Shown: positions 5,722 to 60,901 of the stretch, piece after piece
Layout of the letters: every line of letters begins with the position of its first letter
Position numbering within the stretch: position 1 is the first letter of the stretch
Assembly: GCA_021018995.1 (NCBI GenBank)
Contig: CM037595.1
Coordinates: 78,617,159 to 78,681,158, forward strand
Length of the DNA stretch: 64,000 nt
DNA from: Chloranthus sessilifolius
Taxonomy: Eukaryota > Streptophyta > Magnoliopsida > Chloranthales > Chloranthaceae
Direction of reading: 5' to 3'
Made by a program: the position numbers and the translations under genes
Notes under the pieces: model-generated
Database searches by the model: none
Seen by the model: the letters and a program-made list of their open reading frames with translations, nothing else
What the model was told of the DNA's origin: nothing

Positions 5722-7218
5722 ATGCCGCCTAAAATGCGTTTGTCTTCGAAGAAGGCAACATCTAAGCTCCCGGTTCGGCGTAAGAACGCCGCACCGCCAC
5801 CACCTACTCCATCACCTGTGAGGACTCCATCATCGTCGGCATCGGATACCACATCCGGTTTGACGAGCGCGTCTTCGTGCAAATCTTCACCGATCCCACC
5901 ACCACCCGAGAATATCACCCAACCAAATGAGTGGTGGGCAGCTAAGACCATCGAAGATGACACTATTTACAAATCCCGATGTAGCGGGCGAGACCTAATG
6001 GGCTTAAAATTCTCTCGTGAAGGCCGGCCTCGACAACCTTTTGAATCCAATCCGCGGGTCCTACTACCCTAGATTGGTCTGCCTATTTTACAAAGGGCTC
6101 AAGGAGGGGCCTATCGACGACGTAGTCACGACCACCATTGAGGCTCGTGACTATACTTTTACTCGTCACCACATCCACGAGGTTCTCGAATGTTACCTCG
6201 ACTTTGTGCCCGAGACCACCCTCTTCCCACCCTTTACGGAAGAGGTGAAATTTGAAGAAATAATGACCCGCATGACTAAAGGGAAGAAGGGGTCAGGATC
6301 GTCCATTAGGAGGGTCGATCTCCCCCATTACATGTGGATGCTTGATTCCATAATCAAGTGCAACCTCTACCCCATGTGCCACGACACCGAGCGGGTGGAG
6401 TTAGTGCAGCAGGCACTCTACGCGGCCTTATGTGGCCGTTGGTTTGACGCTACGAAGATCATCCTCGAGGGGATGGCCTATATAAAGGGAAAGTTAATGA
6501 AGGGTAATTTGAGGCCCAAAGAAAAAATGCCCTATGTTTGACTCATCTCAAGCATGCTGGAGTGTTACTCAGACACTCTGGAGTATGCCGTTTTGCCCCA
6601 CGAGGAGAGGGCTACGGATCACGTGAAGCAATTCTCCATTGCTTCATGGATCCGTAGCTACAATTTGCTCAAGAGGTCCCTGCCAGCTCAGGGCCCTGCA
6701 CCAGTACCAGCAGCAGCAGCACCAGTAGCACCACCACCACCCCCACCACCACATCAGGACCCACCCATGGGGGGGCACCCTCCCATACCACCGCCTCACC
6801 TACGCCGCCAGTGCAGTCTATGGTAGCTACACCGACTTCTTCATATCGCCGGTGAGCGACTCGCCAGGTGCCTATGATAGAGGATGTGTTGGCCCAGATG
6901 GAGGCCAACAACAAGAGGATGAATCGACGGATGGAATTTTTGATGTACCACACTCTACGGTACATCTATCTGTTGGACTACCAGCAATGCCTCGCGCAGG
7001 AGAAGGCATGGACTACGGGTCAGATAGCTTTCCATACGGGTGCAGTTTTCCATGCGAGCACATTTGCTGCTGATGCATCTGGCTCGGTGCCCAAGAGGCT
7101 GCTGCGAGATGACCTAGTCACCACACGAGCAGCCGTTCATGAGAAGCTGCTCGGCACCACTCGGCCGGAGAGGAGGCCACGTGAGCTTCAGCGGAGGATA
7201 TTTCTTTTTGCATTGTAA
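5722..7218 (+). pseudogene. Antisense cargo gene of element A: 'putative plant transposon protein' domain
   Basis: On the strand opposite to element A's gag lies a gene with a basic Ser/Pro-rich N-terminus (MPPKMRLSSKKATSK), then a conserved domain (YYPRLVCLFYKGLKEG, YTFTRHHIHEVLECYLDF, VDLPHYMWMLDSIIKCNLYP, LISSMLECYSD; roughly 6040-6660) that matches the family often named 'putative plant transposon protein' (Pfam PF20167, from memory). A Pro/Ala-rich linker (about 6680-6810) and a helical tail with QMEANNKRMNRRMEFLMYH (about 6890-6950) follow. The function of this family is unknown to me. The position, antisense between the pol trace and the missing 3' end of A, is the slot used for additional antisense genes in Tat-lineage elements. 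The copy has a few breaks. Confidence 0.7.
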
Positions 7219-7560
7219 TTCAAACACTGGAAATGCTCAACGATGTAAATTTTAGAAAATTATAATGAAATCAAAACCATTTGTAATGGTCCCATGTTGG
7301 GAAGTAGTTTGATTATTTCGTCCACATGTCAGACTTGATTGTGTAAGTGCTGAATGATTATAATGTATCATAACTTTTTAGCAAGATTGAGGTGAATGGT
7401 AGTTAACGAGTGATTGCATCACTTATCATTTGAAAGTTTTCAGTTTTATCCTCAAGGGGATTTTGAAAATCATTTGACTCATTGTCCGAAAGAGAAATAA
7501 AGGGGTGAAGAAGAGGTAAGGTTTATTGATATGAGGGTAACTTCTTATTTAACCAAAATT
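7219..7560. other. 3' flank of the antisense gene, no gene seen
   Basis: AT-rich sequence after the antisense gene with AATGAAAT-type possible polyadenylation signals near 7266. Nothing else was recognised. Confidence 0.4.
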
Positions 7561-8260
7561 TGAAATAGTAGTCAACTACTTTCTTCTCGGGTGGATAATG
7601 CGGTGCCATAATTGAGCTCTCCATCATGGTTTGGCACCATCAAATCCTCAAATTCTATGGTTAGCAGGAGTTTTATCCTCCTCCAATCACCGTACGATGA
7701 TATCTAGTAGTGTGAAGATGTCAGGGATGCCCTCGTGGCTTGCTTATACTTCTCAAATAAGACTACCAGGAATGTCCTCACAATTTTCTTATGCTTCCCT
7801 AAATTCATTGACTGTTCATTTGTCGTATTGCTTTCGCTCAATTGTGCTTATTTTCTGTATATTTTCTTGAAACAACCTGCTAACGTAAGAATTATGAGGT
7901 TTGATAGAACCTTGCATTTTCATTTTTTCTGCTCTAACATTAACTCCCATGGCTGGAGGGTGTGTGAGAATCCAAAGTTTTCTATATTTCATAAAGAGAG
8001 TTTCATGATCCACTAGTCCTTTTGATCAACTCGCTCAAATAGGAAGGTGGTCAATGAGTTAGATGATTACCAAAATGGTTTCAAAAATAATGACCTACGA
8101 CCGGCGAATGCCTTACGATGACTGCGAGGATGATACATGTAAGAGTATGCCTGTCTAGGCTATGAGACATGATGATGACTGAATTATAATTCCAAGGGTT
8201 AGGAAGTCCTTCCCTTGTGACAAGTTCCTAGGCATGCTGCCGAGATAATGTAGCTACTCC
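7561..8260 (-). repeat. Spacer shared by elements A, B and C, with a trace of the pol end
   Basis: 7600-7830 is clearly homologous to 43570-43800 in element B and, inverted, to 55770-56010 in element C (shared words GATATCTAGTAGT, GGGATGCCCTCGT, AGGAGTTTTATCCTCCTCC). 8195-8255 resembles the B sequence coding for the last residues of pol (44171-44240). The block lies just downstream of pol in all three copies, so it is a conserved noncoding part of this family. Confidence 0.75.
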
Positions 8261-9239
8261 CCTTGTGGTTTTTGATTTCCCTCCAGGTGAGGCGATTGTG
8301 TAGGCATTATTTCTTAGCACCAGCTCCTCGACTTCGAGTTCTTGGCCAGGTAAGAATTATAGGTGAGAGATATTGTTGGGCAATGTATATATTTTTATTT
8401 TGTATATATTTTGTATATTTTTTGTTATTATTGTGGTATTATTGTACAACATCAGTTCCTTAAGCGGAGACTGACTCAGGAAGTCCGTTTGGTGGGACAT
8501 GTTGAATGGTCAGATTGATTGTTCGATTAGATGATACTGTTTTGGGGTCCTCGATCCCTCTTGATCTGATTGATTTGGGATGAGAGAGATGTTATGTTTA
8601 GGTTTGTGTTTTTGATGATATGAGATTTGTCAAAATAGGTGTGGCGTCTTTTAACTTCTTCTTTTGATAAATCTTTTATAGTCAGGGCCTCCTTGTCGGG
8701 AGGGACCTTCTTTAATTTTTCGATAGGGTGAGGCATTTTGAAAAGTTGGAGCATAGAGTTGTTAGAGTATTTTTCGGAGTGATATATAGGTTGTTGGAAA
8801 GTTGTTCATGGGTGAAGTTGCAGTGGAAACTGTTGAGAGGGAAGGTAGTGTTGTAAAGGTAATGAGAAGATAAGGCAGAGGTAGAGGAGGAGGAGACGCG
8901 AGGGCGTAGACCAAGGTGGACCTTTTCTCCATGTGGGACGGTTTTATCTTCTCTTATTTCGTTTGATGTGTATTTTGGGTTTATCGTGAGGTTGTTTTGA
9001 AGTTTTGTTTATAATTTTTGGAGGAGGTTTAGTGTCGAGAGTTTGGTGTAGTAGTTTTGTTGGTTGGGGGGGGGGGGTTCCGTGAAGGTTTTGATCGTGA
9101 GATCTATGGAGATTTGGATCTGGCGATCATAAGCGATTTTAGTTGTGATGTTGTTGTCATGCTGTGGCAAGATTCGACGATCAAGTGGCATATTGATTTG
9201 GATGTGGATTGGGGTCGTAGGATTTAAGTTTGGTTTGAT
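8261..9239. other. Unassigned interior of element A
   Basis: About 1 kb with no recognised domain on either strand. It holds an AT-rich patch (8370-8450), a purine-rich patch (8840-8910) and a run of about 13 G at 9066-9078. It occupies the place where pol would be expected. Confidence 0.4.
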
Positions 9240-10420
9240 TTTGAAAGTAGGAGCGATGATCGGCTCCTTGATAGGTTCGGTGTTGGCTCAAAGGTGAGTG
9301 GAGTTGGCATTGTAGGAATAGGTTCAGTTTTAGTGATGGGTTCATGTTCAAAAATAGGCTCGGGTTTGACGATAGGTTCAGGTTTAACAATGGGTTCTAG
9401 TTTGATGAAGGGTTCGCCTTTGATGGTGGGTTCGAGCTTGTGGATGGGTGTAGGGTCGATGATAGGTTTGGGTCTAGGTTCGACGACTGGTTTAAGTTCA
9501 ATGATTGGTTTGGTTTCATGTTCGATGAGACGTTCAAGTTCGATCATGGATTTAGGTTCGATGATGGGTTCATGTTCGAGGATAGGTTTAGATTCACCGA
9601 TAGTTTGGGGCTTGATGTCAGATTTGTATTCGGTGATCAGTTTAGGTTGGACGATAGGTTCAAGTTTGATGACAGGTTTAGATCTGATGATAGGTTTAGG
9701 TTCGGTGACAAGTTTAGGTTCGATGATTTGTTTGAGTTTGATGATAGGCTTAGATTTGATAATAGGTTTGGGTTTGGGGTTCAGTTTTGGGGTTGGTGAG
9801 GTGATAAGTTCGGTGGTGAGTTCAGGTTTTAAAGCGGGTGTAGAGATTGCTTTGTGAGTTGGTTATGAGATTGGTTCGACAGTTGATCCTGGGGTGAGTG
9901 AAATGGATGGTTCAGAGGTATGTTTGATAACAGACTTAGGTTCAAGATTTTGTTTTGAAGTTGGTGAGGTGGTAGTGAGTTTAGGTTTAGAGGCGGGTGT
10001 AGAAGTTGACTCGAGAGCTAGTTCGGAAGTTGGGGGGGTGAGGTTTTTGTTCTTGTGCTTGATCAGGGGTTCAAGTTTCAAAGTTGGTTCAGGTGTAAGG
10101 GGGCTGGCAACTTGAGGAAGGGGCTAATTTGGTTTCGAAATCTGTGGGGCAATGTGTTTGGTACTGTGTTCAATTTTAGGGGTTTGTTTCATAGTTGAAT
10201 TAGAAGCGAGAGGGCTAGTGATTTTGGGGTTACATTGGATTACGGGTTTGGGTTCGGAGTTAAGTTTTGTGATTGGTTTAAGTATGAATGGTGTCGTATA
10301 ATACCGATTGATTAGTTCGAAAATTACTTTTAGAATTGGCACGTGAGCCTGTTCAGGGGTAGTTTGTGTTATTAGTTTGGGCGACTGTTCAAGAGGTGTG
10401 GGGGTTGATTCGTTTGTTGG
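9240..10420 (-). pseudogene. Gag-linked Pro/Glu/Lys repeat domain of element A (distal part)
   Basis: The minus strand encodes a degenerate repeat of the type EPKPII / KPEPIV (for example KLEPIVKPEPIVKPEPIFEHE near 9370-9430) for several hundred residues. At DNA level this is a 6/12/18-bp repeat of GGTTCGATGATAGGTTTA-like words on the plus strand. The plus-strand open frames rich in Gly/Leu/Ile (9294-9857) are shadows of it. The repeat follows gag in element A and has no counterpart in the pol-bearing element C, whose gag tail is Asn/Gln- and Pro-rich. Function unknown; the composition suggests an extended, disordered region. Confidence 0.6.
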
Positions 10421-10425
10421 TAGGT
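10421..10425. other. Target-site duplication TAGGT (left copy)
   Basis: TAGGT lies directly before the solo LTR, and TAGGT recurs at 12658-12662 directly after it. Confidence 0.75.
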
Positions 10426-10574
10426 TTTCATAACCTGAGATTTTTGGGAACCGTGCACATCACATACCATGCATGTGTATCACATATCATGCACGTGTAT
10501 TTGTGATTCACAAGGAAACCAAAAAAACTACATATATACCCTATGTGTGTATATGTGAAACATTCCAGCTTTTA

Positions 10575-10583
10575 CTATATAAG
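10575..10583 (+). promoter_or_regulatory. TATA box of solo LTR 1
   Basis: CTATATAAG occurs about 150 bp into the LTR, followed by a purine-rich leader-like stretch (AGTGAAAGTGGGGAGGAGAG). The position fits a U3/R border. Confidence 0.55.
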
Positions 10584-10904
10584 TGAAAGTGGGGAGGAGA
10601 GTCTCTCCTACGTAACTTAAATTGGCATAGATAGAGAGAAGGTAAAATAGAGAGAAAGAGGAGAAGGTTTGCAAAAGAGGAGGAGAGGTTCATTGGTTTT
10701 AAGCAGTAGAGAACCTTAGAAATTTTTACGTTTAGACGAAGCTTGGATCAAACTATAGGAGATCTATCGAGTAAGGTATGGTTTTAGATGCTTACGTATG
10801 TTTTAAGTAGAGCATAAACTACTAGACTAATTATCCTTGACATTAATAAGCCTCTCATGAAGAAGGTAATAGTTCTTGAACAGATAGAGAACTTACATCT
10901 TTTC

Positions 10905-11212
10905 GTTGCTCCCTCGAGCGGTCTAAATGGCTCGCTCGAGCGAGGACAGAAGGAATATTTTGAGCATATTCACGTTTTGGACTCGCTCGAGCGAGACCCA
11001 CAGTGAAGGAGAAGCTCGCTCGAGCGAGGCATCGCATAGAGCTCCAGGTACTTCAAATTATAATCGCTCGAGCGAGGAATAATTACCGCTCGAGCGATGA
11101 ATAGTGCTCGCTCGAGTGATGAATAATGACCGCAAGAGCGATGAATTGTGATCGCTCGAGCAAGGTCAAGTGCTCGCTCGAGCGATATTAAATGACCGCT
11201 CGCACGAGGATT
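10905..11212. repeat. Array of CGCTCGAGCG palindromes in solo LTR 1
   Basis: About eleven copies of a palindrome of up to 14 bp (CTCGCTCGAGCGAG) occur every 20-60 bp, several as exact copies (near 10930, 10980, 11010). Spacers are unrelated AT-rich words (GAATAATTAC, GATGAATAGTG). The array lies about 300 bp downstream of the TATA box, so it would be in the transcript leader. Confidence 0.9.
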
Positions 11213-11520
11213 TACCCGATTTTCTCATTTCTTTTAGTGTAAATTATGAGAGCTGTGTTTCGAAAGGTTCTAGAGACCATTCTAAGTAAATTCGTAACAC
11301 ATGCGATGTAGGTGAGACGTGAGTTGTTACGCGTAAACCTCTACGAGAAAGGAGCGCGTTGGATTTTGCTTGAGGTAGGGAATATCTTGAAACATGTACT
11401 TAATTCGTCAAAACTTTGTATGTAGAGTATTTTAATCATGTAGAGCATCTCAAGAGAATAGTCATATTAAATATGTTTCCAAAACGTGTGTGTGTGGGTG
11501 AACTTAAACGGAACCATGAA

Positions 11521-11807
11521 GTCCCCAGGGGACGTAGAATTGTAATAATGAGCATCTGAATGATGCATTAAACCTGTAGCATCCCAGGGATGCAGATGAA
11601 ACCAAATGGTGAAACAAAAGAAGAGCGATGATGCCTAATGTAATAAAATTAGCACAATCACGGTGAATAACTATATGTAGACCACATTCGATATTTTCTT
11701 ATTAGAATACCCCACCGACGTGGCGGGATAACCATGACTGACTCGGTAGGATATCCGTGACCAGTACGGCGGCCAAACAGTACACCTATAGCACATCCCA
11801 GGGATGT
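11521..11807 (+). repeat. Hairpin series in solo LTR 1
   Basis: Four perfect short inverted repeats stand in a row: GTCCCCAGGGGAC (11521-11533), GCATC-TGAAT-GATGC (11552-11566), GCATCCCAGGGATGC (11579-11593) and ACATCCCAGGGATGT (11793-11807). The last two differ by a paired G-C to A-T change that keeps the stem. Counterparts lie in LTR 2 at 18865-19223. Confidence 0.8.
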
Positions 11808-12153
11808 TAAATTGAGAATAGACCCCGCCGCCTAAGAGAAAGGGGCCTGGGTGGTATTGAATTTTAACATATAACAAGTGTTTATTTAGACGACGATGGT
11901 GGGTATTCCATCAGGGATCGACGCTATATTGCTCGGAGACTACTTAAGTTAAGATTTAAGTGATTAGGCCGAATCCATTACTATACCAGTAAGATGAGAA
12001 TAAACAAAGTCATGCAAAGTAACAGTTGTATCTATCATTTTATTTCCAATTATTCTATTATCTTTCAGCAGTTTTATAAGATAAATTGTGTCTTTAAACT
12101 GTTTTAACATATATGTGAGAGCTTAATTTATATGTTCACTGTGTTTCCCTATT

Positions 12154-12200
12154 GAGCTAGGATGTAGCTCACCCTTAGACTATACTTCGCAGGTCCAGGA
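12154..12200 (+). promoter_or_regulatory. Conserved U5-side hairpin block of Tekay-type LTRs
   Basis: GAGCTA-GGATG-TAGCTC forms a perfect 6-bp stem, followed by CACCCTTAGACTATAC and TTCGCAGG. The same block occurs at 19575-19620 and 29177-29222. The hairpin covaries between copies (see findings). Confidence 0.75.
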
Positions 12201-12657
12201 CTAGTGGCAGCAGAAACTTCTGGAGACGTTGATCCGGGGATTCGGATTACGTGCCCACAGAAGAATCAAAGCCTCCTCCTGAGGAGTTCTTCTAAGAGAC
12301 CCATTGCGTACTTTGAGAGTGAGTTGAGAGTATTAGGTACGGCTTGTTATGTGAAGCCTCTTTTTTTTTGTTTAATGTAATTAATTACCTTGATTCTTTT
12401 AACAAACCTTCTGGGGTGAACAGTTAACACCGATAGTTCGGGTCAGTTCTTATGCCCATGAATTGGCATGGGACTAGAACTGACTTTAGAGTTTCTTTTA
12501 TTTTAAATGCATGAGAACTTGTTTAGAGTAGATGCTTGTGCCTTACTTATAGTCTTTGGCTTGTATATACCAATGCTCCGTACAGAATTGCAGAGCATAG
12601 CCTTGAAGGCCGTGCTGATGGCATGGATTTCGGGGTGTCGAAATCTGGGCTGTCACA

Positions 12658-13200
12658 TAGGTTGTCGGATTCAAGGGTAGGTTGAATCGGGTCGAAGATG
12701 GGTGTGTTGAGCATGGCGATGAGTTTGGTGATGGGTTGATTTAGTTTAGGGGTGGTTTTGGTGATAGTTTGGATTTTAGTGATCTTGGTGATCGATTCAG
12801 GGCGAAAGATAATTTCACGTTTATAGGTACGAGGGATAGGGTTAATTGGTTGAGAGTGAATGGTATGGACGTAGTCCGAGAGAGGTTCAATTCTGTGAAT
12901 CAGGCAAGCTGGGTGGAATGGGGCAGGAGTGAATGAGTTTACAGTCTCGTATGTGGGTCGAGGGCTTGATGGAGTTTGTTCAAATAACGGGTTGTTGCAG
13001 GTGATGTTAGTTTGCGCAGTGTCAGGGAGTTGGTTTTGATCATAATGCAAGCTTGTGTATTGGTTGGTGTATAATGGTTGGTAAGGGTGTTGATCTTAGT
13101 TTGTGTGTGGTAGTTGGTTTTGGTCAGGGTATAGGTTTGTGTATAGATCTTGAGCTTGGTCATATGGGTGGTATGGTTGAGGGTTTGTTTGGTTTTGTTC
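12658..13200 (-). pseudogene. Gag-linked repeat-rich region of element A (proximal part)
   Basis: The minus strand encodes a Thr/Asn/Pro/Tyr-rich stretch (TLTKTNYHTQTKINTLTNHY; then PRPTYETVNSFTPAPFHPA and ITKIQTITKTTPKLNQPITK) that leads from gag into the Pro/Glu/Lys repeats beyond the inserted solo LTR. The first part resembles the Asn/Gln-rich gag tail of element C (47960-48160). No catalytic domain was seen. Confidence 0.5.
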
Positions 13201-13456
13201 TTGATTCGTGTTGATTTATTCGGAGTTATAGCTTCATTTAGGGTGTTTTTCTAGGGTCGTTTGATGAGGGTCCTTTGGGTGTTAGTGTGGAGAGGTTAAG
13301 GCTCCCATCCTTTATGTGACGTTGTATGCGTGTAGCGCATTGATAAAGGACAGCGAAGTCAAGGTGGTCACTTAGGATGAGATCACTCTGGAGGGGTTCG
13401 AGGGTGTTGCTGATCATGATTTCTATCGCATCGTGTTCTTTTATTTGATTCCCCGT
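13201..13456 (-). pseudogene. Gag linker of element A
   Basis: Continuation of the gag region between the core domain and the repeat-rich tail. The sequence is weakly conserved and I could not assign it further. Confidence 0.35.
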
Positions 13457-13878
13457 TCAGGCGGTGAGCCTTCTCCAGTGGTTGGCGAACGTCGCGAAGT
13501 CTTCGTCGCCTTCTTGTCTTGTGTGCATCAAGTCAATGAGACTGATTTCTTCATTAGTGAGGTGTTGGTATTGGTCTAAGAATCTGTCGGCTAAGTCTTC
13601 AAAGGTCTCAATTTTGGCTAGAGGCAAGGTAGTGAACCAGTCAAGGGCTTCTCCTTCTAAAGATCGTTCGAAGTAGTGGATGAGGAGCCCATGATTGGTG
13701 CGGATTGGTCGACAGTCATTACAGAATAGGGGCAAGTGGTGTTTTGGATTGCCTGTACTGTTGTATTTGTTGAACTTTGGAGGTTTAAAGCCAACGGGTA
13801 CTGTGAAGTCAACGTCTTCGCAAAATTTGTTGAATCCAAAGGACTGTTTTGAGCGCCCCCTCTTAGCCATGTAGTCAT
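13457..13878 (-). pseudogene. Tat/Retand-type gag core of element A
   Basis: The minus strand encodes SFGFNKFCEDVDFTVPVGF, KFNKYNSTGNPKHHL, and FERSLEGEALDWFTTL then RFLDQYQHL, the core of Retrotrans_gag in Tat-lineage elements. It aligns well with the gag of element C (47221-47640: SFGFDKFCRDIEYDLPIGF, TKYNGTGNPNHHLALF). Gag forms the particle and packages RNA, and a non-autonomous element needs it or a helper's copy. Confidence 0.88.
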
Positions 13879-14094
13879 CTAGAAGGCGGTGGAGGTCATT
13901 TGTGTTTATGGCAGTGCCTTTTCTAGGTGTCTCGAGGGAGGGTTGTCCTCAGTATTTGTTGTTGTAGGAGGTGTGAAGGGTGTGTGTGTCATGTGTTAGG
14001 AGAGTCGGAGCACATGGAGGAGTCCGCGTGCTTTCCTCTTACCTGTTCCTCGAAGTAACCTGTCTTTGGTCTCTTGTAACTCTATTTAAGTGGG

Positions 14095-14361: not shown

Positions 14362-14734
14362 TTTAAAACTATTTTTTTTTTCATATATTTTTTATTTTTT
14401 GTTTTGTTTGTAAAAACTTATTATGCAGGTGAGTGTGTGTAAAAAGTGATAGAGTAAAGTGAAAAAATAAAAATAATAACAAATTAAATAATGCAAGGAA
14501 ATAGAAAACTAAATTAATTAAATTGGGGCAACCTTTGTGAAAAAGAGTCCCATCACAATTGCCAGTCTGTTGGTATGTACTTTTTTTGGGTTCCTCTTCG
14601 GTCCCCAGAAAGAGTGGCCCAATTCTAAATGGAGAATATTTATATGCGCCCGTAGTGATACATTAGAATGACAAAATGATAATATTTAAATGTAAAAGAA
14701 TAAAAGAAGGCGAATTCTAAATGGAGAATACCTG
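14362..14734 (-). other. Untranslated leader of element A
   Basis: AT-rich sequence between LTR and gag. An 18-bp word (AATTCTAAATGGAGAATA) occurs twice, near 14620 and 14713. 14561-14640 is homologous to 31171-31250, next to the LTR at 31295. No clear tRNA primer site was identified. Confidence 0.5.
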
Positions 14735-14819
14735 TGTAGATGCGATCGCCAGTTGCAGATGTTTATCGACGCTGCAACACGTCACTGATTAGTTTGCTTT
14801 CTTAATCCTGTTCTAAGTC

Positions 14820-15330
14820 TAATTGCTTTAGTTTTCCTAGTCCTACCGAGAGTCTAATTATTCTGAAAGTTTTAATTATTCTAAAAGTTTAGTTGAACTA
14901 GTCTCCTAATCCTACTAGGAGTCTGACTATTTCAAGAGTCCTAATCTTATTAGAAGTCTAATTAATATTAGTCTCCTAATTCTATTAAGAGTCTAATTAA
15001 TCGAAGTATTCTGATTCTATTAGAACTTTAATTAATTTAAATATTCTAATTCTATTGGAATTCTAGTAAATTTAGGTATCCTAATCCTATTAGAATTTTA
15101 ATTTAAGTATTCTAATTCTATTGGAATTTTAACTAATTTAAGTATTCTAATTCTATTAAAACTCTAATTAATTTAGGTATTCTAATTCTATTAGAATTCT
15201 AATTAATTTAAGTGTCTGCATTCTATAAAAAATTATTTTAAATATTCTATTTCTATTGGAAATCTAATTATTTTAAGTTTCCTATTTCAACTAGGAATCT
15301 AATTATTTTAGGTTTCCTACTTCTACTAAG
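14820..15330. repeat. Degenerate AT-rich tandem repeat in LTR of element A
   Basis: Repeating units near 35-40 bp built from TATTCTAATTCTATTAGAA and CTAATTAATTTAAG. The matching part of the other LTR is 31480-32130. The words TTCTAAT and ATTAGAA can pair within a unit. Confidence 0.8.
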
Positions 15331-16059
15331 AATCTTAAAAAAGGGGGTTTGGGTCCGCTATGCTAAGGAGGATCGGCCCCATTTTCGGGTACCCTCCGTA
15401 AGCTCCCTTGGGCAAATCGGTTGGCTAAGGGTCATTAAAAATAGTATCAATTGAAAAACTGATTTGTGTATTGAAAAGTTAAGATTTTGATGATTAAAAT
15501 TAAAGGATTTTGCAAGATTAAGATTATAACTGAAATATTATAAACTAAGAGAAATTAAAACTAAAATTAAAAATAAACGCTACGAACTAAAATGATTAAA
15601 AACTAAGAACTGGTTCTAGAAATTAATATCTAGAACCAGAGATGAAGAAATTACGGATTTGAATCTAAAAGGTATGAGTTAAAATTGAAGATCTGAAAAT
15701 TTGCAAGATTATAAACTAGAAGAGAAAAAGTAAGTAAGGAAGTAAAAATTAAAACTAAAATCTAGAACGAAAATTTAAGGATTTAAAGCTAAGACCTGAT
15801 TTTAGAAGCTTAGAGATTAAAAACTAGAATCAGAAACTAGAATTAAAATCTGAAATGTAAGACTAGAAATTTGAATCTAAGATCTATGAAATTAAAAGCT
15901 AAAAGCTAGAACTTAGGAACTAGAAAGGAAACTAAAAACTAGAGCTGAGAAATTACCTAGGTGCTGGAGAGAATTTTGAAATTCCTAAACTCGGAAGAAA
16001 GGAACTCGAAAACTCGATTGCTTGATCTCTCGAATTGTGTGTGTTTTATATTTGGGGTA

Positions 16060-16560
16060 AGGTGGTCTATTTATAGGTATTCCGACAATTGCGCGCCCTG
16101 CGGGGTACGCTTAATTGGTCGGTGGAATTCAATTACGCGCCCTGTCTGGGTCGCTTAATTGAATTGTGCACCTTGTTCTAGACGCTTAATACACTTTGAA
16201 TTTGTCACAGATTCAGTGAGTGACCGACTGAGTGGCTCAGTCAGGTGTCTGAGTTCTAATCAAATTAGAAGTAATTGCGCACCCTACTTGGAGCGTGCAA
16301 TTCGATTATGCGATAGGTCAGCTGTGCTTAATCGGGGAATTCAAGCGGTCAAGGGAACTAGAGACCTGGTAAAAAATGGACTAATTATGCACGGGTGGTG
16401 GGGCGCGTAATTGATTGCGCACTCTTTCCTAGGCATAGAATCGGATCCTAAGGCGGTCCGTGGGATGGGTGGCCTGGTCCGAATTTGACCAATTGCGCGC
16501 CAGCTGTATGGCGCTCAATCGAATTGCGCACACTGTATAGGGCGTGAAATTCAGGATTCT
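16060..16560. repeat. Array of GC-core hairpins in LTR of element A
   Basis: Six or more imperfect inverted repeats of the plan AATTGCGCGCC - 8 to 12 nt - GGCGCTCAATT or CGCTTAATT occur between 16085 and 16550. The same word family occurs at 32950-33340, 45430-45850, 35830-36225, 38100-38450, 61085-61440 and 63775-64000. Confidence 0.75.
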
Positions 16561-46850: not shown

Positions 46851-46857
46851 TAGTAAA

Positions 46858-49850: not shown

Positions 49851-50076
49851 ATCCACATACCATCAATGCTTTAAATTTCTGTATGAGGACTCCATCGTCC
49901 GTATATACACTGATACACCTCTTCAAGAGATGGATACCGATTACGCAGCAAGCATTCTAACAGCCCATGAATTTGTACTAAATACCGGCCACATCCAAAA
50001 GATGTGAATTCCTGATAAAGCATCTGCCGTAGAAGTCTGCTCACCTGCCCTTCCTGGTTTTTGACAACAAGAGCTG

Positions 50077-50406
50077 ATGAGGAGGGAGGTTGGCCCAGAC
50101 CTTGCTAAATTATACGACATCAACCCAACTACGATGAAAGGGTGGGAGCTTATGTACCAACTCGGATACGTCCCCCACACTGGACTCGGTAAGAATGAGC
50201 AAGATCGTGTGAGACCTATATTCCCGACTAAAATATGCAAGCACATAGGAATAGGTTACCAATCGAACAGCCAACCAGCCGATTTATTCCCTACCTCACT
50301 GAAATGGTCTCTTTATGACTACTTCGTCTATGGAACTACTAAGAAAGCAGATGTGCCGAAGCAGAAGGAAATATCCTTCACCAAACCCCAAGAGACGGAA
50401 ATTTAA
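50077..50406 (+). pseudogene. G-patch-like segment of element C
   Basis: WELMYQLGYVPHTGLGKNEQ (about 50142-50202) fits the G-patch plan (hydrophobic, Gly, Gly-Leu-Gly-Lys), a short RNA-binding glycine-rich domain. It follows the protease, the place where betaretroviruses also carry a G-patch. The rest of the segment is not recognised. Confidence 0.6.
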
Positions 50407-52130
50407 CTAATATCCAAAGCATTTAATGATTTGACGAACCTAAATGATGATATCGATGAAGCCCTCGAAGGAGTCAAACCTTTGTTTGACACTAAAAATC
50501 CCATAGAGGGAAGAAAGAAGGACCCTCCAGAAATTGAACCACAATTACAGGACTGAGAATCTACAGATGATGAAGATTTTCACATAGCGGCCTTCCGAGA
50601 CGATGAAGAATACTCACGTTCACCATGGGAAGGGGATGACACTGTGCAAGAAAATATTAATTCATATAGCATCAGCCTTTGCATCGGCCTTGGAGGATGG
50701 GAATGCCCGTGGGACTCGCCTTGTATCTTTCACCCATATCAACCCCGGTGCGAAGCATGCACTCACATACTAGAGCAATTTGCTAGCAAGATCACACATC
50801 CCCTAAAGACCAAAGTGGACGGATCTGACCCTACAACCATAAGCACGACCAGTAATCCACCAACCTTGCTATTGGCATCAGAGGAGAGAGAACCTGATGG
50901 TCAGTTGTTCGACTCAGGAGGCATCCATGAGTCCGAAGAGGAGTTTGAACTAGACACTCTTTCATCCCCAGATGCACCAGAACTCCAAATATTTTGGCAA
51001 TCGCTCGAGGAAGAGTGGCAACCTCCACCAAGTGATGACGAGGACTACTAGATAGACCTCCCTACACTCGAATTGGTAGAGCAAGCCAACCTAGAACTTC
51101 ATGCCTTATCAGATCAAGAGAGCGAATTGGATAATATCATCGACTCTAACTTGGAAGGATGGGAATGTCCTTGAGAATCTCCCTACATTTCTTACCATTA
51201 CCAGCCCAGTTGTCGAGCATGTGCGCTCATCCTAACATATCATGAAGATCAAGAGAAAGAGCTCCCTCCCCCTGGGGACCCTTTAGGAGATTCCCCCTCG
51301 CGGGAAGGACAATCATCTCATAACTTCAACGACAATAGTTCAATTGATTACGATCTATTGAGCTTCTTTGGGGAAGAGACAATCAACCTAGTAGAGGAAA
51401 CTCAAACTATGATACCCTGTCATTAGCATTACTTATTCAAAAGATCCCATTGGATGAGGACTCCAAAACAAAAAAAAAATGCCAAATTTGCAATAAATCT
51501 GCGTTCCCCGAAGGATCACCCGAACGACTCCAGCAATTGTCTCGCTCCCTCAACTAGAGGAAGCGGCTCTCCCGGTGCCTTTTGAGGCCTCCAACCCTGT
51601 ACCATATTTATCATAAAAAAAGTACAAAACATAAAAAACCCTAAAAAGCTAGTAATATAAAATCTAAAAAAATCAGAAAACCTTGAAAAAGAAAGGGAAC
51701 TCTTTACCCCGACTCAATTCTGCAGTCAACGAGGGGACCCGTCTCACGTGTAAGGACGCAAAGCCTACAGGCTAAGTAATAAGCCAGTCATCATACCGGA
51801 AGAGATACTCCACGACTTCGAAAGAAGAATCAATGGCCTTGACCTTCACTTTACTAAAGATCTTTTGGTCATAAATTGCATCGATGAAGAGTTGCCTTAC
51901 GCAAGATTAAATCCCCAGCCTAGTAATTTTGGGGTATATGAGCTCATCGAGGATGAAGGAGGAACACCAGGCCCAGATGAGACTCAGGGCTTCCGGCAAA
52001 CGTTTTGACGAATAGACCCAGGCTGTCGCCGAACCCACGGAGGAAATCGATTTTGGCACCGATGAGAAGCCTAAGAAACTGTTGATTAGTGCGACCCTCA
52101 ATCCTAGAGAACGTCAACAGATTGTATAAG
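50407..52130 (+). pseudogene. Acidic, Cys-motif-bearing linker of element C polyprotein
   Basis: Region rich in Asp/Glu (DDEEYSRSPWEGDD, EESEEEFELDTLSS-like). A motif GWECPWDSPCIF..YQPRCEAC at about 50695-50762 recurs as GWECP..SPYISYHYQPSCRAC at about 51160-51222, each in acidic surroundings. The last third carries no clear motif. I recognise no family; position between G-patch and RT. Confidence 0.5.
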
Positions 52131-52139
52131 TCCTATAGG

Positions 52140-53000
52140 AACATCTTGACTCTTTCGCATGGTCCTACGAGGACATGCCTGGTTTAGACCCAAGTCTAGT
52201 AGAACATCATCTTGTCTTAGAATCCGATGCAAAACCTGTTAAGAAAAAACTCCGCAGGATGCACCCCCAAACAATCCTTCAAGTCAGAGAGGAAGTTGAC
52301 AAGTTACACAAAGCTAAATTCATCCAAGTTATCCTCTACCCCAACTGGATCGCCAACATACTACCTGTCGCCAAGAAAGACGGTAGGGTACGGGTTTGCA
52401 TTGACTTTCGAAACCTTAATTAGGCATGCCCAAAAGATGATTTTCCACTCTCACATATTGACACTCTTGTTGACAACACCACTGGACATGAGATGCTATC
52501 CTTCATGGACGGTTTCTCTGGATATAATCAGATCAAGTTAGCAGAGTCTGACCAAGAGAATACTTCCTTCACCACGCCATGGGGAACTTACTGCCACGTC
52601 GTCATGCCTTTTAGGCTCAAGAATGCAGGAGCCACATATCAACATGCCATGATGGTTATTTTCACGACATGATGTATAAGTGTGTAGAAGTTTATGTCGA
52701 TGACATATTAGTGAAATCTCAAACACTAGTAGGACAAGCTGAAGCCCTTCGGCTAGTGCTACAGAGAGCTAAGAAATATCAACTAAAAATGAATCCTAAG
52801 AAATGTATTTTCGGAGTCACCTCCAGAAAATTACTTGGTTTTATAATTAGCAACCAAGAGATTGAAGTCGACCCTGTGAAAGTGAGCCATTTTAGAGATG
52901 TTGCCTCCCAACAATATCAAGGAATTATGATATTTGATAGGAAGATTACAGTTCATCAGGAGATTTATCTCTCAGCATTTAGACCAATGTGATCCTTTCT
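52140..53000 (+). pseudogene. Reverse transcriptase remnant of element C
   Basis: DSFAWSYEDMPGLDPSLVEH (about 52150), VREEVDKLHKAKFIQ, PNWIANILPVAKKDGRVRVC, IDFRNLN, then the catalytic box YVDDILVKS at 52693 and FGVTSRKLLGFIIS. This is the Tat-lineage wording (MPGLDP, IDFRDLN). Confidence 0.92.
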
Positions 53001-53440
53001 ACAAACTACTTAAAGGAAGGATTGAGTACAGATGGGATGACCAATGCCAACAAGCTTTTAATAATATTAAAAAATACCTCCTTAACCCACCAATACTATC
53101 GCCACCAATTCCCGGAAGACCCTAATCCTATACCTTTCGGCAAATGATAAAGTGATGGGAGTAATCTTAGGATAATATGAAGAAGATGGCAAGAGAGAGA
53201 AGGTCATTTGCTACCCAGTAGAACGATGGTCGAATACAAACAAAAGTACACCCCTATGGAAAAGGTATGCCTCACATTGGTATGGGCTTCAACTAAATTA
53301 CGACATTACTTTAGAGCACATAAGATATTAGCGCTAGCCCGAATGGATCCTTTGAAGTACATATTCCAAAATCCCGCCACATCAAGGAAGATTGCCCACT
53401 AGCATATGCTATTACAAGAGTTTGATATCATGTACATTAC
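53001..53440 (+). pseudogene. RT connection / first RNase H zone of element C
   Basis: FYKLLKGRIEYRWDDQCQQAF (about 53000), YLLNPPILSPP, then YTPMEKVCLTLVWASTKLRHYF and the MDPLKYIFQNPATSRKIA region. It corresponds to the decayed first RNase H of Tat-lineage pol. Confidence 0.8.
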
Positions 53441-53540
53441 CCAGAAGTCGATCAAGGGGCACGCCATTGTAGATTACCTCGCAGATCTTCCACTCCCGAA
53501 CAATAAACTCATACACGCGGACTTCCCCGATGAAGACTTA

Positions 53541-53970
53541 CTCACAATTCATGATGAAGAGCCCGATAAATCCTCATGGACTCTCTATTTCGACGATGCT
53601 CTAAATCACAAAGGGAAGGGCATCAAGATAGTCCTTCTAAGCCCGAAAGGAGTGGTGATACCCAAGGCTTTCTAATTAGACTTCCCTGTTACCAAGAATG
53701 TTGTAGAATACGAAGCTTTTATCGCTGGATTACAGACAATATTACAATTAGGTGTCAAACAGTTAAAGACCATAGGCAATTCCAAACTAGTAATCTCGCA
53801 AGTCATAGGAGAATGGAAAACTAAGGAAAGGAGATTGATGACATACCTAGAGACTGCTCAATATTTAGTAAAGAAATTTGAAAAGATCTCTTTCACACAC
53901 ATCCCTAGATTAGAAAATGAGTTAGCAAATTTCTTCGCCACACTAGCCTCTATCATCCAGATACCTATCG
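53541..53970 (+). pseudogene. Second (archaeal-type) RNase H of element C
   Basis: WTLYFDDALNHKGKGIKIVL (about 53578), VVEYEAFIAGLQTILQLGVK (about 53700) and RLENELANFFATLAS (about 53910) match the additional archaeal-type RNase H that defines the plant Tat lineage (established by published work on Tat elements). Confidence 0.85.
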
Positions 53971-54299
53971 GCCAAAATATCAAGACCTTCTTCATTGAAA
54001 GATTAACAGTACCCGCCCACAAAGTAGCATGGACCGTTATAAGGGAACTACCAATTCTCTCTGCCAACACGGAATCAAAAGAAATAATCACTCCAGAAAA
54101 TCACGCTCAAAAACCGAAGTCGCCACGTTTAGATTCGAGAAATCACCAATCGACGACGGACAACCATGGTATTTTGACATCTGGAATTTCTTCAAACATC
54201 AACACGGTCTCCATACGCCACGAAGATCAAACGAAAGACTATAAGAAATCGGTGCGCCCGATTCTGTATACTCAGCAAAACATTATACAAAGAAGCCTT

Positions 54300-55440
54300 C
54301 ACTAAGAGAGTACTACTGTAATGCATCACGATTGCCGAAGGACAATATATCATTCGAGAAGCACACGCCAGTGCTTGCGGTGCCCACTCTAGTAGATAAA
54401 GACTCGCCGATCAAGTTACACGATAAGGCTACTTCTGGCCGACGATGATAAGAGACTGTCACCTCTACGTTCAATCCTGCAAATAATGTCAAGAGCACGC
54501 CGCACTTATCAAAGCTCCATCAGTTGCGCTAAACACTATGACCTCGCCATGGCCATTTTCGATGTGGGCCTTCGACATCATTAGACCGTTTACAGACATC
54601 GTTGGGAATACTCATAAGCATGCGTTCATACTTACAGCGACCAAATACAATACCAAATAGGCAGAGGCCGAGTCTTATGTCAGAATCACCACTTCGACAC
54701 TTGCGAGGTTTATAGTTTGAAATATAATTACCCGGTTTGGAGTACCCAGAATGTTCATCACCGACAACGGATCGCAAATCATTACAGAAAAGACGAAGAA
54801 GTTATGCAAGAAATACGGCATTGATTTGTGCCACTCATCACCGTTCTACCCTCAAGGCAATGGACAAGCAGAAGCGACAAACAAGAAGCTGATTCAAATC
54901 CTGAAATGAACTGTGGAAACAAGCAATGGAGCCGACTAGCTTGAACGATTATCGAAAGCACTCTAGGCCTATAAGACCGCTATTCGTACGGCCACTAGCC
55001 AAACTCCCTACCTCCTCACCTATGGGATGGAGGCGTCCTACCATATGAGATACAAGTACCATCTTTACGCATCTAACTCGATAATGAACTATCCTTAGAC
55101 AAGAGGAGAATTTCTTTACTTACTCAGTTAGAGCAACTCGATGAAACACGCCTAAGGGCAGCTGATCACGCTTAGGTGTATCAGAGGAGAATGGCCAGGG
55201 CCTATGATAAGAAAGTCCTTGAATGAACCTTTAACATTGGCGAGCTAGTCTTAAAGAAAATTATGCATTCCAAACACGCCCATCCAAAAGGAAAACTGAA
55301 ACCAAACTGGGAAGGCCCTTACGTTATAACAGCAGCATACCCTCGAAATACATATAAATTGGCGAACCAAGACGGGGAAGAGCTCCCTAGCCCCTGGAAT
55401 GCCATGTACCTTAGAAAATACTATCCTTAGTCTTATGATC
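54300..55440 (+). pseudogene. Integrase remnant of element C
   Basis: Zinc-binding zone with IIREAHASACGAHS (about 54350) and YFWPTMIRDCHLYVQSC; core with MWAFDIIRPF (about 54560), FGVPRMFITDNGSQI (about 54735) and SPFYPQGNGQAEATNKKLIQ (about 54840); C-terminal NIGELVLKKIMHSKHA and NWEGPYVITAAYP (to about 55430). No chromodomain follows, as expected for Tat. Confidence 0.88.
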
Positions 55441-56999
55441 ATCACATCCCGTGGTTAAAATACTTATACTTATAATCCCGTAGTCATCACGACCCATCCA
55501 TTGGTCGTATGTCCTCAATCCTTAGAATATCCTTAAAAATCTCCGACTTGTTGCTCACCATTTACACTCGGGCGATTTGATTGAAGGATTAGTGACCTAC
55601 CTAAAACTTTTTTCAAAAGCGTAAGAAACACCCGATTCTCATTCCCTATCCTCGCCATTGGAGGACACGTTAGAGCAAAAAAATGAAGATGTTAGGTTCA
55701 ATCAAAACTCATTATCCTTGCACCAGCAGGATGCTTTCAAAAGAAATGTACAAATAAAAAAATATATATATATCGAGCGAGAGCATTACGATGAATGAAC
55801 AAGTCAATGAACTCAAGAAAGCATAAGCAGGTCGTGAGGACATCTCCGGCAACTTTACTGGAAGTGTATAAGCAAGCTATGAGGGCATCCCTGATATTCT
55901 CATACTACTAGATGTCGTCGTTAGGTGGCGGGAGGAGGATAAACCCCTGCTAGCCATAGAATGCGAGATTTTGATGGTACCGAAACATGACGAAGAGCTC
56001 GATCATGGCATTCCATACCCCTCAGAGGAGAAGATTGTTACTTATCCCTTTTGCAAAGGTATTAGTTACGAACTATTCCCCATATCACTAAGCCTTACCT
56101 CTCCCCTTTCTGGTTTTATTTTGGACGATGAATCTAAGACTTCACAGGATATTCCTAGGAATGAAACTGAAAACCACTGAATGACGATTGATGCAATCAC
56201 CCATTATACTTACCATATTTTTTCCGAATAACCACAGAATAGGATGATCAATACCCTAAGATAGACCCCTGTATGCTATTAATCGAAGGACCTCCCCCTG
56301 GTTCGGAGACGTATCGATGCACTTTTCTGCAAGACTAATTCACCTAATACCCATGACTATTTATAGAACCAAAATGCTTATATAAGGCCTAGGGAAGCTC
56401 CATTGCATCCATACGCTGGGACATTTTTTTTAAAGAAAAAGGAAAATTATATTAGGAACGCTGACTCGACCATGAAAAAGATGAAGAATGATGAAGATAC
56501 CGCTCAGAGAGCACTATCAAAATACCGTACCGCAAGCTCAACCACGCTTCCACGTTGGGGCATTTAATTTTTTTTTTTTTTTAATTTGTCATTATTTTTG
56601 TCATTTGCTTTCCCTGTTGTACTATTTATTATTTCAAAAAAGAAGAAGAAAAAAAAAAGGAAAGAAAGTCAAAAAAACAGAAAAAGAAAAAAACTTATAT
56701 CCACCTTTCTATCACCAGACCCCGGTCTGAGATATTTTCTCCCTTGACAACTTGCAAGGGGGGGAACAAAACTACTGATAGCATTACTTTTACATGTGTA
56801 GATGCAAAGCAACCTTCAAACCAGCAATAGGCCAGCTTAGAAAGCATCCAAGTCCCAGTGACGGCTGACGACACCGAAGGCAAAAAGAAAACACCAAAAG
56901 GTAATCAAAGGAGGAGAAGCGAATCAGGTACATATGAACCAAAAATCCCTATATATATATAAACATATTCCAAAAAAATATAGTCCTTTCTTTTTCTTC
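55441..56999 (+). repeat. Spacer shared by elements A, B and C (C copy)
   Basis: Noncoding. 55770-56010 is homologous to the spacers of B and A; 56690-56860 to 42760-42930 of B. A run of about 15 T lies near 56568, and an A-rich stretch at 56636-56700. Confidence 0.75.
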
Positions 57000-57072: not shown

Positions 57073-60000
57073 CTAATCCCTACGCTGTCGCTGAGGAGGA
57101 TGAGTGCCGCTATCACCGGTATCGTTAGCCTGGAGGTCCGTAGACTGATCATCTAAAAACACAATCCCGGCACTCGAAATCCTCGAAACCTCTAAATGGC
57201 GAGGACCCGCCACCGAACCCCCCTCACTAGCCTAACTAATCGACCGCCTCGACTGAGAATGAGGAGGAAGCCTCGCATGACTCCCCTGAACGACAGAATC
57301 CTCACGACTATTGCTCATATCGTAATCGGGAGGTATGTGAGGCCGGTGAAGAACCCGTAGCCTCGACTCTAACCTCACGATGACTAGCTACCCGCTTTCG
57401 CCCCTCGTCAGCAGATCAGAACCGATCCAAGGACACCTGCATCTCCGCCCGTGTCGTCCAACACACTGCCACTAGTACCTCCGTATGAGTCCTCTGCGTG
57501 ACCAACATCTCAACCACCAGATCCTCACGACTCTCCACCTCTCTGAGGACTCGTCTCGCCTCTGGAGTAGCCAGCGCCCGCGCTGCCTCTAGCCATGCCT
57601 CCTCGAGCTGACAAACCTGTATAACTCTATTGAATCAAAAGAAGTAAACGTATGCATATACAAACAACAACAAAACTTGAAATGAAAAATACATATATAC
57701 CAGATCTAGCCTCTCTCCCAGAAGTCGCTCGATTGTCTCTGCGGTCACAGGATCAGCAGATGGCACCCGTGGGACGGCAAACGCAGACGACTATAACGAG
57801 AATAAACAAATGCATCAGATAAATATTATGATAACAAATAAGTTACGAACCCAATGACTAAAACATACCTAGGTAGGGATAGGAATGAACCCCTGAGGAG
57901 GAGCCTCGGGAGCGGAGTCCGGAACTGCTTGAACAATAAAAAAAATAACGAACAACAAGCCAATACGAACGCGTTAGAATAAATAGAAATGAACAATCCA
58001 AAGTAAATTGCACTAAACCATACCAGACTCTCAGAACGTAGAGAGGCAACGGTCGCCTCCCTCATCTGCAAGTCCTCAGCAACTTGACGCTGAAACACCG
58101 ACACACGTTAGTAAACCATCAAGCCAACATAATAATAATGCCTAACAAACCAGTACAGTAACACAAGTAAACTGAAGAGTGATGGAACTTACCCAATGCT
58201 CCAACTCAAACCACAAACGAGCTATCACTGGATCCTCCCGACTGGAGGAAGCCACTAAAGAAGGATCAAATGCCCGAGCCAAAGCCCCTGCAGCGAAAAG
58301 CTCTATTATCTAAAAACGCCACCAATGTGCCAACATTAGCAAGGATCCCTGAATCGTCAACAGTTAATAAGTCCAATCCAAGATACTTACCAATTGCGCG
58401 ATCTTCGAACATAAACTAGCCTCCACCACGCAACCCGCCTGCTGCTGGTCGCGCAACAGTTCAATCATCGCTGCCTAGCAAGCAACCTCAGACTCTCTCA
58501 GACTAGCCACAATAAAAACAAGGCCACTATATTAAAAACATTACAAGAATAAACCAATATAATGCATGGATGAATTAAAACCAATAAACTAACTCACCAG
58601 GAGCTGACAAGCCTCTGCTAGTCGAACTCCTAACTCATCCTCCGCCGCCCTGGCCCTGGCAACTGACTCAGTCAAAAAATGCAACATTTCCTCATCAGGA
58701 TGAGGAGCATGCTCCATCTGCTCTATCACCCTATGGAGGGCATCCAATGCTCCCCGCACACTCGCCGTGAGGTGGCCCTCCTCCAATGCGAGCAACTCTC
58801 CCTCAATGTCGACGCCGACTCCGGCCCGCCAACAGCGAAAGAATCACTACCATGAAAAGGACACGTGAAGAGACGCCCTCCACCCAACGCGCCAAACCAC
58901 CTCCTCCTATACTCTCGCACATCAGCCTCATCACGTGCCCCCGTGACTCTGGTCCCCCCGACTCTAAAATCAGCTATCTGGAGCGCCATCCGCTCTACAA
59001 AATTCTGGCCTGGAGGGTCGGTCATCCTCTTAGCCACCTTGTGGCTAGTCGCCGGAGGGACTCCCTGATCGAGTCCCAGCTGTCGTACCACCTGAGAGGT
59101 GTGGATCCCCTCCACTCGCTCAAAATAATGGACCCATATGTCCACATTGAAGAAGGATCGACCAGACTCAATCACCGCCTCACTTGCGTCCTCTACACCA
59201 TCATAGGGTCTCCAGATCACCTATCCGAAGGAACAAATCAATCCATGAGCGAACCCTAAGGGCCACAAAAAAAATAGATGAAGTCCAAACGAAAACATAA
59301 TGTCATACACATACTTGCCCTGCATGCATATCCTCGAAGAGGCCTCGTGCAGTCTGAAGGTTAGCTGACCAGCGACGACCCCTCAATGCCTCCCTCCACA
59401 TGCACATCCGCGGGAACGTGAATGAAATCTCCGACGGGACCCCCGAGCACAGAAAAGCGAAATGATCGTATGCCCAAAACTGAAAACATTAACATAACAA
59501 CAACGACCACACTAAAGGTTAAAAAAAACCGCTACCACGATACCAATTTAACTAAAACTCACCTGGATAAACGGGAGGAAACCTCCGATCGAATCTATCC
59601 CCTAACCCTGATGTTGAAACTTCTCGTAGAGATGTACCAACATAGTCGCACCCCACGCATAGGTCGGGACTCGGTCTAAATCCCTCAGAATCATCAAAAA
59701 TAACCTGGTGACACATCCCCGAGTCGAAGAAGAGAAAAGTACTACGCCCAAGAAGTGCATCAAGAATGCTCAGAGCACCCTATCCGCGGCCAATCCTAGC
59801 TCGGTCACGGGCTCCCAGCCCATCACTCTCGCACAACGTGCCTCATAAAGCGATGTTACCTCTAAATGACGCCTCAGAGGGTGAACCCAGTCGCAAACGT
59901 ATCAAAGAACCAAGTGACCCGAATAAAACCTGGCCCCGATCCACTCAACCTATAAGGCACACCCAGGATCTCCTCACATACCTCTAGATAACTCCCTGCC

Positions 60001-60901
60001 ATCCGCCCCGTGATCGGCTCACTCTTGAAATGAAGACCAGTAATGCGAACCTAGTCCTCAGGGGTCGACAACATCATACCGACTGGAAAGAGAAGCGCCT
60101 GATGCCTCTCGCTCCACGTCTCTATAATTGCCGCGATCAAGCCTCGATCGACCTGAAAAGGCTACAACTCCAAAATTGTCCCAAACTTGAAAGACACCAA
60201 CCGCTCCCGCTGAAACTTCGGCAAAGCACGGTACCAAGTATGAGACTCGGTCCATGCTGTGTTGATAGCTAGTTGCGGGGGCTCCTAGTGAACGAAACAC
60301 AAATAATGACAGTAAGACTAACGCATACCTATGACAAAAGATAAATAAATTTAGAGCTTAAAGCAAATGAAATATGCCCAAACCACATAATAATAACTTA
60401 TAACGGACACATAAAATATGATAAGAACAACTAAATAGAACATGTCGTCATAATACACAAGTAAACACGACCCCCATAATCAATGCAGGTTTGACATAAA
60501 TTAGAAGGGTTTACGGATCCTAACGAGCCTATGTCATAGCTTGAATGCCTAAGAAAATGGAAGAACTCTTGCTTATAGGGACCTACCCGGCCTCTGGTAA
60601 AGAAATCCTCCAGTGGATTGTGCCTACGATCCCGAGGCTCAGCGCCTGGCTGCTCCTCACCTTACTCACCATCAACTCTGTCGCCCTCCTCCTCGGCTAC
60701 CCCTGTCTTAGCCTCTGGTACCTCCTCCCTGACCACCATCTGGTCACCCTCGGGGACTCCCTCCGTGATCATCTACCTGATATCCGCCTCTATGGCAATG
60801 GCTCTAGCCTGTGCCCCCGAACTCTCACCCCCATCGCACATCAACATCCCCTCTAACTCAGAAATAGTGAGCTTTGGGCTACCAACACCCTCACCCTCCA
60901 T
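57073..60901 (-). pseudogene. Antisense cargo gene of element C: plant mobile domain protein
   Basis: Opposite strand to element C. The start MEGEGVGSPKLTISELEGML (60901) and the end SQRQRR-like (57073) match the gene of element B. PMD parts are visible near 60300-59250 (MDRVSYLVP, EVSAGAVGVF) and 59220-58900 (WRPYDGVEDASEAVIESGRS, DIWVHYFERVEGIHTSQVVR, GTRVTGARDEADVREY). A helical tail follows. Intron-like gaps occupy places equivalent to B, one with a GC donor (near 59310). The gene is between pol and the 3' end, as in B. The copy has many breaks. Role unknown. Confidence 0.72.

Follow-up and report, generated by a model that had tools for sequence, protein, structure and literature searches.

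Genes placed behind pol and antisense to the element are an established feature of Tat-lineage Ty3/gypsy retrotransposons of plants. A plant mobile domain (PMD) is reported for 57% of Ogre elements, Transposase_28 for 23% of Retand elements and ATHILA ORF-1 for 16% of Athila elements, and the extra open reading frames (ORFs) of plant Ty3/gypsy elements fall into 314 heterogeneous groups that were likely acquired independently and are apparently of multiple origin (PMC6317226). Two PMD clades, PMD-A1 and PMD-A2, occur only in Gypsy elements, and host PMD proteins take part in silencing (PMC5418596; further literature on PMD is found in PMC7156037 and PMC9289625). Antisense Transposase_28 ORFs are present in 97% of the clusters of recent Retand elements, some of which are non-autonomous (PMC11963269), and antisense ORFs have been reviewed, including the separate promoter of gene23 of Grande (PMC7264820). 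Here we analyzed a stretch of 64,000 nucleotides of Chloranthus sessilifolius (assembly GCA_021018995.1, contig CM037595.1, positions 78,617,159 to 78,681,158), hereafter the window. It consists of repeat-rich DNA, of plant origin by its element types, in which self-comparison delineated three Tat-type elements, A, B, and C. The antisense slot behind pol holds a PMD gene in B and C, and probably an unrelated Transposase_32 gene in A. Our favoured reading, with a probability of about 0.58, is that a single gene replacement or gain on the branch of A placed the Transposase_32 gene in its antisense slot.

Element A occupies the minus strand from 16928, B the minus strand with a truncation at 44614, and C the plus strand from 45182 (Table 1); the 3' long terminal repeat (LTR) of C was not found in the window and would lie beyond it. 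As the initial annotation had stated, LTR and post-pol spacer are common to all three elements and gag to A and C. Pairwise blastn of the LTRs gave E-values of 3e-121 (A/B), 4e-61 (A/C), and 0 (B/C), and all three LTRs start with TGTAAACACC or TGTAGACACT/C. At the 5' LTR of C, coverage of the LTR profile lacked its final ~430 positions. The gag regions matched at E=1e-75 with 52% amino-acid identity across 243 residues, and the spacer (~755 bp) is shared at 67-79% identity. The claim that these are members of one family was not borne out. Under the 80-80-80 rule, members of the same family share at least 80% identity, and the LTRs are 61.8% (A/B), 53.4% (A/C), and 68.0% (B/C) identical over 1567-2189 aligned sites; together with the spacer they fall below that value, and the short integrase end of B and C is the only part reaching 85%. 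By this convention A, B, and C are three diverged, related families, as far as sequence identity can tell. Distances in the spacer were 0.43 and 0.45 from A to B and C versus 0.26 between B and C, and the corresponding LTR distances were 0.55 and 0.75 versus 0.43, which places A as the outgroup in a topology (A,(B,C)). Differences between the gag regions of A and C amounted to 0.32, 0.26, and 0.57 at first, second, and third codon positions (p=3e-13), and this strong third-position bias indicates that the lineages split while gag was under selection, before the copies decayed.

The antisense multi-exon PMD gene annotated in B and C was confirmed. Three spliced exons of B, with X at stops, matched PF10536 at E=1.5e-35, and the splice sites of these domain exons line up between B and C when read by eye; the C-terminal exon of C alone scored E=0.088, below the cut-off. 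TATA boxes are aligned between the two copies ~170 bp upstream of the ATG, TATAAATA at 38455-38462 in B and TATATAAA at 61080-61073 in C. In maize Grande, gene23 likewise lies antisense behind pol and has a separate promoter; neither PMD nor Transposase_32 is named for it in the accessible part of PMC7264820. Across PMD exons 2-4, differences between B and C numbered 100/502 at first, 86/501 at second, and 181/501 at third positions (p=4e-13). No periodicity was detected in four non-coding comparisons (the A/C spacer, the B/C LTR, the B/C upstream region, and the B/C 3' flank; p 0.17-0.97), and the B/C spacer (p=0.019) had its highest value at the first position, a pattern unlike that of coding DNA. 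The codon-position bias of the PMD exons shows, at the level of the aligned copies, that selection maintained the antisense protein during the divergence of B and C, although each copy has since become broken. Direct codon-level evidence of this kind for an antisense PMD gene was absent from the literature found.

The pol of C, although broken, retains a reverse transcriptase from 52139 (RVT_1, E=7e-10 and 9e-9), a first RNase H at ~53018-53400 (RT_RNaseH, E=3.4e-9, 53217 onward), a second RNase H at ~53568-53945 (RVT_3, E=7.7e-19), and an integrase from 54526 (rve, E=1.7e-9). A protease-like match (E=0.1) and, after it, a G-patch at 50065-50403 (PF01585, E=1.2e-4) were both below their cut-offs; G-patches are known in other plant Gypsy elements (PMC9289625). 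Of the pol of B only the integrase end remains (SH3_Tf2-1, E=2e-4, below its cut-off). The additional RNase H between RNase H and integrase that marks the Tat lineage is present in C, and the PMD extra ORF of the Ogre type, which is not diagnostic alone, is present in B and, by alignment, in C. From the two RNase H domains of C, the PMD gene, and the G-patch, C would thus be assigned to the Tat lineage, Ogre type, and B by homology. Published Ogre elements (TatIV/V) with a PMD ORF (PMC6317226) are alike in their Tat-type pol, with the second RNase H before the integrase as in C, and in a PMD after pol as in B and C. The copies described here differ in displaying orientation, introns, promoter-like boxes, and codon-level selection on two copies, both of which are decayed and one of which, B, is truncated.

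In element A nearly all of pol is missing. Comparison of C against A by tblastx matched LTR, gag, and spacer, and the interior of A yielded only linked pieces of 9-20 residues (21-24 bits). A colinear stub of pol (8328-8189) was nevertheless recovered from the whole window by nhmmer with a profile built solely from the pol ends of B and C (E=1.2e-5); it corresponds to ~55240-55400 of C, close to the pol stop of that element, and none of 200 shuffles aligned as well. Because A lacks pol save for this colinear end of ~50 codons, it is read as an internal-deletion derivative, presumably non-autonomous: parts of a Tat element are kept and pol is lost. The interior also contains a solo LTR, which we take to be of the Tekay type, with the target-site duplication TAGGT on both sides and TT, not TG, as its first two bases. 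When the flanks were rejoined at one TAGGT copy, one frame was open across the joint, which indicates that the gag side and the interior of A are one element. Defective Retand members likewise keep a long region between pol and the 3' LTR with antisense ORFs (PMC11963269); they differ in carrying another domain, Transposase_28, and A keeps gag in spite of lacking nearly all of pol. A K/P/I/T-rich ORF (9227-10424), which contains 18-bp tandem units and is repetitive in itself, sits in the place of pol. An LTR-like stretch that ends near 20090 matches the last 1.2 kb of the solo LTR at 70% identity.

The gene for a plant transposon protein that the initial annotation had placed in the slot of A was recovered as an antisense ORF matching PF20167 in its middle, in a broken form. 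It is interrupted by one in-frame stop and by two or more frameshifts, and the match covers profile positions 4-149 of 177 with 28.5 bits, below the cut-off of 45; we consider it likely to be a decayed relative of Transposase_32. A gap of 170 bp separates the end of the ORF from the spacer. The ORF has the same place and orientation as PMD in B and C, and a TATA-like stretch lies upstream of it, on the side that matches the B/C promoters. Its supposed position, bounded by the end of pol and by a 3' LTR of A, was not confirmed: of pol only the stub is left in A, and no 3' LTR of A was found in the window. Comparisons with the corresponding parts of B and C were negative throughout, shuffled sequences scoring as well in 99/200 cases for the TATA-like and 5' untranslated region (UTR) against the B/C promoter region, 168/200 for the gap between ORF and spacer against the B/C gene flank, 154/200 and 147/200 for the two ends of the ORF, and 45/60 for 4640-5721. 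In a search for other copies, no relatives were found in scans of viral and genome contigs or by tblastn of phages, collections described as viral or prokaryotic. In the literature search, which left most subscription papers outside its scope, no paper was found to describe Transposase_32 in antisense orientation within a Tat backbone, or a pol-deleted element like A with a probable Transposase_32 gene in the antisense slot. Among the matches listed, the accessible part of PMC11728184 was the only source found for PF20167 in LTR elements; the ORF of that element, Athila 14 of sunflower, is likewise in the 3' part, and differs in being sense there and antisense to a Tat-type backbone here.

The Transposase_32 ORF is assigned to A because of its place and orientation only, and on these grounds there are about two chances in three that it is part of that element. 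Several points weigh against the favoured reading: the Pfam match is below cut-off, the homology of A to B and C stops sharply at 7389, profiles of the LTR and upstream regions recognised no 3' LTR or upstream region of A left of that position in the window, the ORF of the Athila element is sense, and the comparison rests on three elements only. (Since the copies that built these profiles match by construction, the profiles were used only for what stayed unfound.) Most of these points would also be accounted for if A were truncated at 7389 and 4640-7388 were a fragment of another retroelement, such as Athila with its Transposase_32 in a 3' sense ORF (PMC11728184), or a free-standing gene, and the stretch between ORF and spacer, which resembles nothing in the B/C gene flank, would fit as well. 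We hold this to be the less likely explanation, since the ORF is so close to the spacer, in the exact orientation and place of the slot, and since the adjoining pol is that of a chromovirus, not of Athila (the latter label being assigned by eye). The initial annotation had itself named a separate insertion with its own ends at 5722-7218 as a finding that would overturn its proposal. A repeat search of 4600-8200, which returned 17 families and the best 25 of 74 inverted pairs listed and was blind to 5-bp target-site duplications, revealed no long flanking direct repeat and no long ends, and the direct-repeat pairs straddling the ORF were only 14-20 nt long and imperfect; no sequence of A was found left of 7389. 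The pairs 5523-5539/7425-7441 and 5517-5531/7463-7477 were rejected as insertion ends, as their right copies lie inside the spacer. It is hardly credible that the ORF is the sense 3' extra ORF of the chromovirus whose pol ends at 4639: it is on the same strand, 1.1 kb downstream of the chromodomain-like end, but the spacer of A comes after it and no LTR of the chromovirus was recognised, a weak argument as that LTR is itself unknown.

The remaining explanations accept the ORF as a resident of the slot. That different gene families occupy the same antisense slot was upheld as to place relative to the spacer and orientation; exchange on the same backbone, the other half of the initial proposal, was not shown. 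The occurrence of two gene families at one position beside the spacer, and the many groups of extra ORFs in plant Ty3/gypsy elements (PMC6317226), would suit a true cargo-swap slot, in which antisense cassettes were exchanged repeatedly among near-identical backbones with the spacer as a fixed joint. This is improbable, because a single difference was observed, on the deepest split of three elements, the backbones are diverged to the extent given above for the LTRs, and the closer pair, B and C, has the same gene. Repeated swapping was thus not demonstrated; it would require the trees of backbone and cassette to disagree, and three elements are too few to reveal this. Still more improbable is one ancient antisense gene that diverged beyond recognition with nothing exchanged. 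Place and orientation agree with it, and the extra-ORF domains of Tat and Athila elements are poorly characterised plant families, but no Pfam cross-match was obtained up to E=10 (with filters that drop most weak matches), blastp detected no similarity (best E=1.2), and one long ORF stands against many exons. Single-sequence models of Transposase_32 and PMD had a mean predicted local distance difference test score of 44.9 and 36.3, too poor for a comparison of folds, and PDB sequence searches returned nothing for Transposase_32 and one meaningless match (E=0.7) for PMD.

Under the favoured reading of a single replacement or gain, the three elements would be old remnants of three related but distinct Tat-lineage families of the Ogre type. 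The antisense gene after pol would have encoded a PMD protein in the common ancestor of B and C, its sequence kept by selection, and may have been transcribed from its own TATA-type promoter, to which the TATA-like stretch in A could correspond. The introns of the PMD gene may have escaped loss because, in their orientation, they cannot be spliced from the genomic RNA. Element A would represent a presumably non-autonomous, pol-deleted derivative of a sister family, of which LTR, gag, low-complexity ORF, pol stub, and spacer remain, and in its visible part the Transposase_32 gene would occupy the antisense slot. The gene difference falls exactly on the split between A and B+C, so that one replacement, gain or loss is enough. 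Such a replacement, or an independent acquisition, on the branch of A would have been joined at the spacer edge (7389/7388 in A, 43362/43361 in B), either through a template switch between co-packaged RNAs or through end joining. The encoded proteins may have nuclear or silencing-related roles, if host PMD proteins are taken as a guide. A bolder version, in which a pol-less Tat element retained gag, LTR, and a constrained non-coding spacer but swapped PMD for an Athila-type Transposase_32 gene and turned it antisense, and in which the slot is a modular site open to any nuclear accessory gene that has its own promoter, even in elements with a borrowed pol, is doubtful.

The literature already covers extra ORFs antisense to Tat elements, the PMD of Ogre, the heterogeneity of extra ORFs, and Transposase_32 in Athila, and differing antisense genes are mostly within the known variability. 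The elements described here bear on why Tat elements retain a reversed gene behind pol. If other copies confirm the arrangement of A, the extra gene would be interchangeable and useful to elements without their own pol, which would argue for an accessory role, for instance against silencing, rather than for a part of the copying machinery.

Table 1. Features of elements A, B, and C and of the DNA adjoining A (positions in the window).
Feature	Position	Strand	Evidence and remarks
Element A 5' LTR	14620-16928	-	Starts TGTAAACACC; 3' end approximate; blastn to B/C LTRs; followed by leader resembling a primer-binding site (PBS)
Element A gag (retrotransposon gag domain)	13188-13978	-	PF03732 E=1.4e-7; two in-frame stops in 243 codons
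Element A interior, K/P/I/T-rich low-complexity ORF where pol is expected	8329-13187	-	Solo LTR inside at 10425-12659
Element A pol C-terminal remnant, ~50 codons	8189-8328	-	nhmmer, B+C pol-end profile, E=1.2e-5
Element A post-pol spacer	7389-8143	-	blastn E 1e-94 to B, 3e-97 to C; 67-68% identical
ORF antisense to A, likely Transposase_32 ('putative plant transposon protein')	5722-7218	+	PF20167 E=1.7e-6
TATATATATATAA at 5485-5497 (TATA-like) and presumed 5' UTR preceding the Transposase_32 ORF	5485-5721	+	
GATTAATCGA minisatellite and other DNA between chromovirus pol end (4639) and ORF	4640-5484	.	No A border visible
Element B post-pol spacer	43362-44107	-	blastn to A E 1e-94; part of 7.3-kb B/C match
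Element B pol end (integrase C-terminus), 5'-truncated	44114-44614	-	85% nucleotide identity to C 55035-55392
Element B antisense multi-exon PMD gene	38631-42540	+	ATG 38631, stop 42540; domain exons 39320-40039, 40132-40296, 40391-41011; stops present
LTR assigned to the 3' end of B	31236-33849	-	blastn to A/C LTRs; purine-rich gaagagggg just upstream; PBS-like leader after
Element C 5' LTR (TGTAGACACC)	45182-46960	+	blastn to A/B LTRs; end approximate
Element C gag	47128-47976	+	PF03732 E=2.1e-8
Element C broken pol	49423-55430	+	Protease-like, G-patch, reverse transcriptase, RNase H, second RNase H, integrase; stop 55428-55430
Element C post-pol spacer	55463-56216	+	blastn to A E 3e-97
Element C antisense multi-exon PMD gene	57073-60901	-	ATG 60901, stop 57073; aligned to B along gene; stops and frameshifts

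The spacer is flanked by the 3' ends of pol and of the antisense gene. Differences between its copies in A and C (0.33) are fewer than at third positions of gag (0.57) and lack codon periodicity (p=0.97), and the spacer thus looks constrained though non-coding. Structured RNA is not claimed for it: RNAalifold gave z-scores of -6.2 (sense) and -5.9 (antisense) with 30 column shuffles each, but controls scored similarly (-12.7 for the LTR alignment and -4.9 for the B/C upstream region), and the B/C spacer pair alone reached -1.6. When folded singly, the spacers of A and B were no better than shuffles (z -0.7) and that of C had a z-score of -2.7; an Rfam search of the spacer gave no match. CpG depletion was tried as a test of shared age and did not discriminate.

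The PBS-like leader after the LTR assigned to the 3' end of B is like that of A, to which it is homologous (0/200 shuffles as good). This suggests that the LTR is shared in tandem with another copy or is the 5' LTR of a further, truncated element; no gag match was found near 31000-33849. With up to three mismatches to the tRNA-Arg consensus that we assumed, no PBS matched in the window, and a degenerate look-alike was noted by eye near 14625 in A. The chromovirus pol ending at 4639, presumably also of the Tekay type, lies on the plus strand and comprises reverse transcriptase and RNase H, pieces of integrase, and a chromodomain match just under the cut-off. Elsewhere, 21116-26148 contains two long pairs of inverted arms, 21116-22610/23641-25196 (67%) and 23330-23640/25846-26148 (76%), which may represent an element of the fold-back type. 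Three separate places, at 4870-5483, 18081-18555, and 27453-27710, carry palindromic minisatellites of the GATTAATCGA type.

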